Assembly (NCBI GenBank): GCA_014879945.1
Contig: JACSRE010000140.1
Coordinates: 1 to 64,000, forward strand
Source: Myxococcus sp.
GTDB taxonomy: Bacteria; Myxococcota; Myxococcia; Myxococcales; Myxococcaceae
DNA: 64,000 nt
Direction: 5' to 3'
Position 1 is the first letter of the stretch. Every line of letters starts with the position of its first letter. The translations under genes were made by a program, and so were the position numbers. The notes under the pieces were generated by a model. The model had not been told where the DNA came from, did no database searches, and saw only the letters and a list, made by a program, of their open reading frames with translations. Of the stretch, positions 8,938 to 10,965 are shown piece by piece.

Positions 8938-9636
8938 CTACCGCCTGGCGACCCGCGCGAAGTGGTGGGCCAGCCGCTCGATGACGGCGCGGTTCTCGGC
9001 CTCGGCCGCGCGCAGCTTGCCCACCTGCGCCTTCAGCTCCGCGACGTCCTTGCCCGCGGCCTCGAGCAGCTCCCGCCCTTCCGAGAGCCAGCCGTCGAAG
9101 GCGTCGCCCGACAGCTCGAGGTGAAACTGGAACGCGAAGCTGTCGCCGAGGCGAAACGCCTGCTGGGTGTAGCGGTCGGTCGAGGCCAGCAGCGTCGCGC
9201 CCTCCACCGGCGTGAAGGTGTCTTCGTGCCAGTGGGCCACGGTGGACTTCGGCTTGAGCCCCGCCAGCACGGGGTCTTCGAGGCCCTGCTTCGTCCACCG
9301 CACGGGGCCGACGCCCACCTCGAACCCGTTCTTGCCGCGCGTCACCTCGCTGCCCGCGGCCGCCGCCAGCACCTGCGCGCCCAGGCAGATGCCCAGGCAG
9401 GGCCGCCCCAGCGCCAGCCGCTCGATGAAGAAGGCCAGCTCCTCGTTGAGGAACGGGTGCGCCGCGGTGTCTGACACGCTCATCGAGCCGCCCAGCGACA
9501 CCACCAGCTCGGCCTCGAGGTCGTGGTGCTCGACGCCGCGAAAGCGCCGGGTGAACGAGAAGCCCTCGGCAGCCAGCGCGGGCTCGAACAGCCCCAGGTC
9601 TTCGTGGGCCTCGTGCTGAAGGATGACGGCGCGCAT
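8938..9636 (-). CDS. Class I glutamine amidotransferase-like protein
   Basis: A 232-residue stand-alone GATase1 domain. The catalytic Cys is C84 in PCLGICLGAQ, and the His/Glu pair is H172/E174 in FQFHLEL; LVVSLGGSMSV forms the oxyanion strand. It resembles GMP synthase (glutamine-hydrolysing)-related or YfeJ-like proteins. The last 45 residues form a charged helix (AGKDVAELKAQVGKLRAAEAENRAVIERL) that looks like a coiled coil and is not part of the core domain. Start ATG 9636. It is convergent with the hydrolase, with one base between the stops. No synthase partner is adjacent, so its acceptor is unknown. Confidence 0.88.
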   Translation of the reverse strand: MRAVILQHEAHEDLGLFEPALAAEGFSFTRRFRGVEHHDLEAELVVSLGGSMSVSDTAAHPFLNEELAFFIERLALGRPCLGICLGAQVLAAAAGSEVTRGKNGFEVGVGPVRWTKQGLEDPVLAGLKPKSTVAHWHEDTFTPVEGATLLASTDRYTQQAFRLGDSFAFQFHLELSGDAFDGWLSEGRELLEAAGKDVAELKAQVGKLRAAEAENRAVIERLAHHFARVARR

Positions 9637-9734
9637 GGGCTGACTCGACACACAACGCCCCGGGCGGTCAACTGCCGCGAGGGGGGAAAGACAGCCGTGC
9701 GCAGAAGAACCGGCGAGCGCGGCGGCAATCGGCC

Positions 9735-9740
9735 TACTCT
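9735..9740 (+). promoter_or_regulatory. Candidate -10 element for the DUF2378 gene
   Basis: TACTCT ends 8 nt before ATG 9749, in an otherwise GC-rich divergent intergenic region. There is no Shine-Dalgarno sequence between them, suggesting a leaderless transcript. No convincing -35 element is visible. Confidence 0.35.
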
Positions 9741-9748
9741 CGGCCACG

Positions 9749-10297
9749 ATGATGGTGCCGGTCTCCCAGCGGGTCATCTTCCCAGTCCAGGCCGAGGGGT
9801 TGCTGCGCGGGCTCGACCCCGACGTGAAGGGCACGTTGAAGCAGCGCCTCCAGGAGGCCGGGCTCGACCCCGACCGCGCGCTGCCTCCCGGCTGGCCCGC
9901 CTCGAAGCTCAAGGAGTGGCTCGACATCGCGTCGGCCGAGCTCTACCCGTCGCTCCCGCTCGACGAGGCCCACCGCCGCATCGGGCGCCGCTTCCTCGAC
10001 GGCTGGCAGCGCACCGTGCTGGGCGCGGCGTCGGCGCAGTTCCTCAAGGTGCTGGGCGTCAAGCGCACGCTGGAGCGCCTCTCGCGCGCCTTCCGCACCG
10101 GCGACAACTACACCGAGACGGCCGCCGAGTTCCCCGAGGAGCGCGTGGCGGTGTTGACCGTCGTCTCGCAGCAACTGCCGCACTACATCGCCGGCATCCT
10201 CGACGGCGGGCTGATGCTGTTGAAGGTGAAGGGCAAGGTCAGCATCGAGCAGGCCTCGGGAGACACCATGTCGTTTCGCGTCGAGTGGGAGCCGTGA
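9749..10297 (+). CDS. DUF2378 family protein (myxobacterial)
   Basis: A 182-residue protein of the DUF2378 (TIGR02265) family, a lineage-specific family expanded in myxobacteria. Recognisable features are the N-terminal VIFPVQAEGLLRGL, the LPLDEAHRRIGRRFLDGWQRTVLG helix and the C-terminal beta segment with HYIAGILDGGLMLL. Function is unknown; the fold is thought to be alpha/beta with a C-terminal sheet. Two adjacent in-frame ATGs (9749 and 9752) could start it. Its stop overlaps the next gene's GTG by 4 nt, so the two are co-translated, tying this protein to the cyclase-like lipoprotein. Confidence 0.85.
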   Translation: MMVPVSQRVIFPVQAEGLLRGLDPDVKGTLKQRLQEAGLDPDRALPPGWPASKLKEWLDIASAELYPSLPLDEAHRRIGRRFLDGWQRTVLGAASAQFLKVLGVKRTLERLSRAFRTGDNYTETAAEFPEERVAVLTVVSQQLPHYIAGILDGGLMLLKVKGKVSIEQASGDTMSFRVEWEP

Positions 10298-10965
10298 CGC
10301 GGCTCCGCTGGGTGGCGCTGCTGGCGGTGAGCGGCTGCGTGACGAGCGGGCCGTCGTTTCAGAAGCCCGACCTCGACGCCGTGCTCGACGCGCGCATCGC
10401 GGCCGAAGATGGGAAGGACGAGGCGAAGGCGAGCCAGCACGACGCGGCGCTGCGCGCGCGCATGGAGCCGCTGGCGGTCTTCATCTCGGACATGAGCGGC
10501 TTCTCGAAGCTCACCCGCGAGAAGGGCATCGCCTGGTTCCTCGCGCAGATTCGTCGCATGGAGCGCGTGGCCCTGCCGCTCCTCGAGAAGCACGGCTGCG
10601 AGCTGGTGAAGCAGTACGGCGACGACCTCTTCGTGGTGTCGAAGGACGCGGCGCGCCTGGTGGCGTTCGCCCGCGACTTCCTGGCGGCGCTCGAGCTCGA
10701 GAAGCAGCGCGGCCACCCGCTCAACGTCTCCATCGGCATCACGAAGGGCGACGTGCTGCGGGTGGGGAGCGACCTGTTCGGCGACGCGGTGAACCGGGCC
10801 TCGAAGCTGGGCGAAGACCTGGGCGAGGCCGAGGAGCTGCTGCTCGGGCTCGAGGTGTACGAGGCGCTCCCGGTCGAGGCGAAGGCCGGCTGCACCGTTC
10901 AGCCCGAAGGCACGCGCGAGGCGAAGTTCTCGTTCGCCCTCTGCGTGAAGCCCGCGACGCCTTGA
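10294..10965 (+). CDS. Lipoprotein with class III nucleotide cyclase-like domain
   Basis: A 223-residue protein. GTG 10294 overlaps the DUF2378 stop and yields a lipoprotein signal (RLRWVALLAVSGC, lipid Cys at 15). Residues 60-185 match a class III adenylate/guanylate cyclase domain: metal-binding D66 (FISDMSGFSKL), K106 and D110 (KQYGDD), and D164/N167 in FGDAVNRASKL. The transition-state Arg, four residues after the Asn, is Lys (K171). A lipobox puts the domain outside the cytoplasm, where ATP is absent, so it may be a nucleotide sensor, a binding scaffold, or a cyclase kept inside if the signal is not used. It ends 113 nt from the convergent chorismate mutase. Confidence 0.8.
   Translation: MTRLRWVALLAVSGCVTSGPSFQKPDLDAVLDARIAAEDGKDEAKASQHDAALRARMEPLAVFISDMSGFSKLTREKGIAWFLAQIRRMERVALPLLEKHGCELVKQYGDDLFVVSKDAARLVAFARDFLAALELEKQRGHPLNVSIGITKGDVLRVGSDLFGDAVNRASKLGEDLGEAEELLLGLEVYEALPVEAKAGCTVQPEGTREAKFSFALCVKPATP

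Follow-up and report, generated by a model that had tools for sequence, protein, structure and literature searches.

A clade of predicted exported cyclase-homology proteins in myxobacteria, coupled in one genus to a DUF2378 protein with a predicted, haem-less H-NOX fold

Background

The closest described relatives of the protein analysed here are the class III cyclases (PF00211; Ma1120, Rv1625c, CyaC), whose domains are known as cytosolic catalysts and with which it has in common the fold, the two metal-binding Asp residues, the purine-specifying Lys-Asp pair and the Asn. Unlike them, it has Lys at the position of the transition-state Arg, followed by a family-specific LGED motif, and it possesses neither a transmembrane nor a sensor domain, but a predicted export signal and a C-terminal pair of Cys residues. 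The cyclase-like sets described in the available text of PMC4886424 are other, cytosolic ones. Literature searches for a class III cyclase with a lipoprotein signal peptide or in the periplasm, and for an adenylate cyclase with a lipobox in Myxococcus, found nothing, and a search for secreted class III cyclases returned other topics only, among the matches listed.

The DUF2378 gene that precedes the cyclase-homology gene invites comparison with H-NOX domains and soluble guanylate cyclase (sGC), because its product has an H-NOX fold and the gene order is H-NOX fold followed by cyclase fold. H-NOX-like folds form a clan in Pfam. Unlike sGC, the locus encodes two separate proteins, which the inner membrane is predicted to keep apart, and unlike H-NOX, DUF2378 does not conserve the haem His and the Y-x-S-x-R motif. 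The next fold after H-NOX for DUF2378 is that of TRAPP Bet3 (V4R), with a weaker and shorter match. According to the available text of PMC9257966, DUF2378 is found in myxobacteria exclusively, its function is not known, and one DUF2378 is up-regulated by the quinolone signal HHQ in two myxobacteria; literature searches for DUF2378, TIGR02265 or PF09536 yielded nothing on point besides that paper, and those linking myxobacteria with H-NOX nothing on point. The SitA toxins are likewise myxobacterial lipoproteins with an enzyme-like domain, but the protein described here has no immunity gene downstream and is not polymorphic.

An exported clade that retains the nucleotide pocket raises the question of whether nucleotide chemistry or sensing takes place in the myxobacterial envelope, and with an envelope protein of the cyclase fold in hand, the existence of a source or sensor for the outside cAMP and cGMP treated in the available text of PMC12288465 would become directly testable.

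Results and discussion

The cyclase-homology gene and its family

The window (64,000 nucleotides from an assembly of Myxococcus sp., contig JACSRE010000140.1) contains an ORF at 10294-10965 that aligns with solved class III cyclases and scored 32.6 bits against PF00211 in a profile search (curated cut-off 21.9); its product begins M(GTG)TRLRWVALLAVSGC-VT (Table 1). A sequence-only reading of the window had proposed this ORF, its boundaries and its cyclase motifs, with Lys in place of the transition-state Arg, a lipobox and translational coupling to the DUF2378 gene, and each of these points was borne out: PF00211 exceeds its cut-off, D66, K106, D110, D160 and N167 are present, residue 171 is Lys, V-S-G-C is encoded ahead of the core, and the two genes overlap by 4 nt. 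The exported cyclase-homology clade, whose genes in one genus are coupled to that of a haem-less protein of H-NOX fold, is a real and conserved feature, and the carriers of the pair are uncultured soil bacteria related to Myxococcus, represented by metagenome-assembled genomes (MAGs). A 480-aa open frame (9523-10965, + strand) also covers the cyclase-homology ORF and runs antiparallel to an amidotransferase gene; it was rejected as a gene and attributed to high G+C.

Table 1. Features of the cyclase-homology gene and its DUF2378 neighbour (coordinates in the window)
Feature	Coordinates	Strand	Remarks
DUF2378 / TIGR02265 gene, 182 aa	9749..10297	+	predicted H-NOX fold without haem ligands
Cyclase-homology protein, predicted lipoprotein, 223 aa	10294..10965	+	PF00211 32.6 bits; AF2 pLDDT 88.2; VIA Z 22.7 to Ma1120
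GTGA stop/start overlap (translational coupling)	10294..10297	+	DUF2378 stop and cyclase GTG
Predicted lipoprotein signal peptide (residues 1-14)	10294..10335	+	hydrophobic prefix absent in cytosolic relatives; Cys15 invariant 7/7
Lipobox V-S-G-C	10327..10338	+	Cys codon 10336-10338
N-terminal helical pair (residues 24-56)	10363..10461	+	corresponds to the N-terminal helices in cytosolic relatives
Cyclase-homology core (residues 57-197)	10462..10884	+	
D66, first metal Asp	10489..10491	+	invariant 30/30
K106, purine-specifying Lys	10609..10611	+	invariant 30/30
D110, second metal Asp	10621..10623	+	invariant 30/30
D160, adenine-specifying Asp	10771..10773	+	29/30, Glu in L048
N167, transition-state Asn	10792..10794	+	invariant 30/30
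S-K-L-G-E-D family motif; K171 at the transition-state Arg position	10801..10818	+	L172, G173, E174 and D175 invariant 30/30
C200, first of C-terminal Cys pair	10891..10893	+	strand 200-203
C217, second of C-terminal Cys pair	10942..10944	+	strand 214-217, facing 200-203

A survey of the order (145 genomes, threshold E 1e-10) found the protein in ten genomes, its own counted. Within the genus, orthologues at 71-78% identity are present in five further genomes, the matches on named MAG contigs being these same loci, and G094 carries one at about 40% identity. When 195 genomes of the phylum were searched with a profile of seven exported proteins (A1), 95 had matches at E 1e-12; the majority of these lie in long open frames, which is what ordinary multi-domain cyclases would give. 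The family set consists of 30 translated loci, with about 100 further listed matches outside it; eight exported proteins in the set score at least 196 bits against A1, and 22 short proteins without an export signal score at most 115 bits. In a tree of the eight exported proteins, the 22 cytosolic ones and four ordinary cyclases, the 30 family members are split from the ordinary cyclases (support 100/99) and the exported proteins form one clade (support 99/95), the finer placing being unsure because some branches are long.

The window gene appears to encode an exported member of a small family of cyclase-homology proteins that stand alone in myxobacteria, here named the SKLGED family. The 22 cytosolic members examined in Myxococcota share with it the core, the N-terminal helices, the catalytic residues and the SKLGED motif, but lack both the hydrophobic prefix and the C-terminal Cys pair and start about 47-50 residues ahead of the metal motif. 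The comparison shows that the conserved core of the exported clade is that of the cytosolic relatives, extended by a hydrophobic prefix that ends in Cys and by the two C-terminal Cys residues. The cytosolic loci (L035-L056) encode short proteins with the motif V-N-x-A-x-K-L-G-E-D and are spread across many families of Myxococcota. Another genome (G135, contig C103) contains a fragment (L021:1501-1707) that resembles the exported cyclase-homology protein (approximately 58% over residues 103-159); its frame does not continue as a member of the SKLGED family and looks like a broken second copy.

Lys for Arg, which the sequence-only reading had noted in the window gene, is not peculiar to it but turned out to be the rule in a wider and mostly cytosolic family of stand-alone proteins (Lys in 29 of the 30 members, Arg in L017), and the idea that Lys171 reflects recent decay of this gene was rejected on the same count. 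The substitution is probably older than export, since Lys is found throughout the family and the exported proteins form a single clade. It is not exclusive to the SKLGED family, because the position is Arg in three of the four ordinary cyclases and Lys in the fourth (L010). The latter, an ordinary multi-domain cyclase on contig C216 of the same genome as the window, has the sequence VNLAAKL here.

Export signal and C-terminal Cys pair

Judged from its predicted N-terminus and the features kept across the clade, export of the window protein is very likely, and the extracytoplasmic location that the sequence-only reading had proposed gains support from the joint conservation of the lipobox and the C-terminal Cys pair. 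Seven of the eight exported proteins have a lipobox-like N-terminus, and the eighth (from G157) begins like a signal peptide but has no lipobox, and its n-region contains no Lys or Arg. Only Cys15 and Thr17 are invariant within the first 26 residues of the seven aligned lipoprotein-type proteins. A relaxed lipobox pattern (basic n-region, hydrophobic stretch, [AGS]-Cys), composed after inspection of the homologues on which it was scored, fits all seven, which is more than chance would give: among the 3471 start codons in the window with 26 open codons it fits 16, and among the 223 ORFs of at least 100 aa it fits 3. A strict PROSITE-type pattern is passed by two of the six same-genus proteins and failed by four, among them the window protein, because Arg5 lies within the six-residue stretch in which the pattern admits no D, E, R or K; the h-region is short in this protein, nine residues separating the last Arg from the Cys.

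The best hydrophobic 9-mer ahead of the core has a Kyte-Doolittle value of 1.84-2.86 in all eight exported proteins, against at most 1.67 in the cytosolic relatives at the start that they commonly use, 45-50 residues ahead of the metal motif, 3 of the 22 having no start in the range examined; a far-upstream alternative start in one cytosolic row gave 1.77, near the exported minimum. No excess of change at the third position was found in the codons of the prefix (0.40, 0.39 and 0.41 by codon position), and the codon pattern is therefore no proof of translation there.

The C-terminal Cys pair is present in 8/8 exported proteins (offset by a few residues in the alignment in that of G157), and in the cytosolic relatives both columns are Cys in 0/22 and one is Cys in 2/22. 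In the AF2 model of the window protein, C200 and C217 sit on facing strands, which may be read as a hairpin.

Translation from a start downstream of the lipobox, the outcome that the sequence-only reading had set against its own proposal, would yield a cytosolic enzyme. In-frame starts are available, including ATG 10462 and GTG 10381, and Met57 is kept in all six same-genus proteins, but a start at 10462 would drop the N-terminal helices that the cytosolic relatives retain, the coupled start beside the DUF2378 stop is kept in 5/5 pairs, and the lipobox Cys and the C-terminal Cys pair occur together. No evidence for such a start was found, and this origin of the protein is considered very unlikely.

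The DUF2378 partner

The coupled upstream gene belongs to DUF2378 (PF09536, 131.5 bits against a cut-off of 22.2; TIGR02265, 99.4 bits against 25), and no export signal was seen in its 182-aa product. The AF2 model (pLDDT 87.7, from a shallow alignment of nine rows) has H-NOX domains as its best Foldseek matches (E about 1e-7), and in VIA comparisons it matched the H-NOX of T. tengcongensis (3iqb; Z 16.1, 2.5 A, 165 residues), human sGC beta (Z 14.2, 3.3 A, 168 residues) and Bet3 (Z 10.8, 3.6 A, 135 residues). Alignment of 34 DUF2378 with 20 H-NOX sequences by hhalign gave 97.0% (E 1e-10, 151 columns), and a shallower set gave 86% over 168 columns, against 0.06% for an unrelated control. A direct search for PF07700 found no match in the DUF2378 protein (E up to 1; DUF2378 was the only family returned) or in the genome of the window, and when PDB sequences were searched with profile A2, built from DUF2378, nothing useful emerged, the one match being a chance hit to dynein (E 0.76).

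The proximal His and the Tyr, Ser and Arg of Y-x-S-x-R, the haem-associated residues of H-NOX, are invariant in 20/20 H-NOX sequences. The window DUF2378 protein has T, V and S/Q at the positions of the triad, the His column falls at about L108 or S112 in two profile alignments, and no His is shared in the facing helix, these columns included, among the 34 DUF2378 rows. Because the haem His, Tyr, Ser and Arg are absent, DUF2378, as modelled, has the H-NOX fold but is no haem H-NOX, and a role as a haem gas sensor was rejected on these grounds. Of 193 genomes of the phylum, 117 contain DUF2378, frequently as many copies, whereas none of 14 control genomes does; the H-NOX fold provides a structural starting point for this multi-copy family.

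Nucleotide pocket and proposed role

The AF2 model of the 223-aa cyclase-homology protein (pLDDT 88.2, likewise from a shallow alignment, of seven rows) has Ma1120 (5d0e) as its best VIA match (Z 22.7, 1.9 A, 159 residues). In the exported clade, within which sequence identity falls as low as 39%, 36 of 141 core columns are invariant, including all five catalytic positions (hypergeometric p 0.0009). Conservation of the pocket makes a mere scaffold less likely than a protein that binds a ligand or catalyses a reaction; it cannot distinguish these two and is equally compatible with catalysis. The chances that the exported protein binds a nucleotide or similar ligand are judged about even, and catalytic turnover is judged unlikely. 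Lys171 stands in place of the Arg expected of a class III cyclase, and for that reason the protein is classed by its cyclase homology and is not counted among the proven cyclases.

The preferred reading, held tentatively at a probability of roughly 0.45, is that of an exported, lipid-anchored nucleotide-binding (pseudo)cyclase made together with a cytosolic, haem-less H-NOX-fold DUF2378 protein. Signal peptidase II would cleave ahead of Cys15, leaving a lipoprotein that faces the periplasm from either the inner or the outer membrane, in which Cys200 and Cys217 would form a disulfide and which would dimerise as class III domains do. The pocket might bind a metal complex of an adenine nucleotide, or another phosphorylated ligand of that kind, which could reach the envelope from, for example, lysed cells or prey, so that the main role might be that of a ligand-binding (pseudo)cyclase and not of a cytosolic source of cAMP. 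DUF2378 would be a cytosolic protein translated in a coupled manner from the same message, which most likely either forms the cytosolic part of one shared response or helps to produce the lipoprotein; contact between the two across the inner membrane would not be expected, as they are predicted to lie on opposite sides of it.

An active class III cyclase outside the cytoplasm, with Lys171 replacing Arg, would convert periplasmic or surface ATP (from prey lysis or vesicles) to cAMP, which would act as a signal outside the cell or belong to the handling of nucleotides. To our knowledge, no steady supply of ATP exists in the periplasm. The metal and purine residues and the Asn are kept and position 171 is always basic (Lys in 29, Arg in 1 of 30). 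Loss of one transition-state residue may be tolerable, since Ma1120 is active with Ala for the usual Asn, according to the available text of PMC4215837, but both Asn and Arg are reported as essential in a mammalian cyclase, according to the title of a reference therein. In the accessible part of PMC12288465, cAMP is stated to induce fruiting-body formation and cGMP to attract aggregating M. xanthus, in keeping with an active enzyme. On balance, such activity is unlikely.

A lipoprotein without nucleotide binding, in which the cyclase fold has been turned to a structural or protein-binding use, would suit a compartment generally regarded as poor in ATP, the substitution of Lys for Arg and the small single domain with its added Cys hairpin; the catalytic positions, however, are kept in the exported clade beyond expectation, despite its low minimum identity, and this alternative is likewise unlikely. 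A split, sGC-like pair, consisting of a disulfide-stabilised, lipid-anchored cyclase outside the cytoplasm that would make a cyclic nucleotide signal from extracellular or periplasmic ATP and a coupled haem-less H-NOX-fold protein with the membrane between them, is quite unlikely.

Gene neighbourhood and conservation of the pair

The DUF2378-cyclase pair, whose recurrence elsewhere the sequence-only reading had suggested checking, was found in five of the six same-genus genomes with the exported cyclase-homology gene. The junction is a 4-nt overlap in four of the five (the window, L022, L024 and L025) and a 4-nt spacer in L023. Upstream, the window has a divergent glutamine amidotransferase gene, as do three of the other four paired loci; on the downstream side, genes for chorismate mutase and/or U32 peptidase occupy the opposite strand. 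Orthologues of the paired DUF2378 (64-81% identity) were found only at paired loci in the ten genomes searched, the closest DUF2378 proteins in G131 and G134 being 35-39% identical.

The sixth same-genus genome (G131) has the cyclase orthologue without an adjoining DUF2378 gene and has no close copy of the paired DUF2378 elsewhere, so the pairing is not obligatory and the functional link is weakened. Its orthologue (L026) is preceded by a HypD-like gene on the opposite strand and followed by a gene for a protein kinase. The exported cyclase-homology genes of G094 and G157 are also unpaired, with DUF2378 genes located elsewhere in both genomes. Recurrence of the pair within the genus agrees with the 'dedicated system' of the sequence-only reading as far as it goes, but the unpaired genes and the membership of DUF2378 in a large paralogous family with varied neighbours do not. 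Coupling of the two genes shows co-expression, not contact.

The gene next downstream of the cyclase-homology gene in the window encodes chorismate mutase on the - strand, in convergent orientation. This bears on whether the product could be an effector that moves from cell to cell by outer-membrane exchange, in the manner of SitA, and acts with ATP in the cytoplasm of the recipient. Myxobacteria do exchange outer-membrane lipoproteins, SitA toxins included, but SitA loci carry an immunity gene immediately downstream (both statements from the available text of PMC12288465), a place occupied here by the chorismate mutase gene, and each genome has one conserved orthologous locus that is not polymorphic. 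Such an effector is extremely unlikely.

The genes next after 14 other DUF2378 loci vary (for example protein kinase, MgtC-like protein, aminotransferase or a second DUF2378), with none in range for two. In ten distant genomes, DUF2378 genes and cyclase matches are on different contigs, except for one pair each in G164 and G182 that shares a contig at a distance of about 25 and 71 kb, respectively. DUF2378-cyclase pairing as a general rule in myxobacteria was rejected on the strength of these varied neighbours and separate contigs. Two other arrangements were observed around DUF2378 genes: G094 has tandem DUF2378 genes with a 4-nt ATGA overlap (L112:1474-2582), and in G000 (L002:1501-3526) and G133 (L117) a protein-kinase-like gene follows 49 nt after the DUF2378 gene, the kinase-domain test covering L002.
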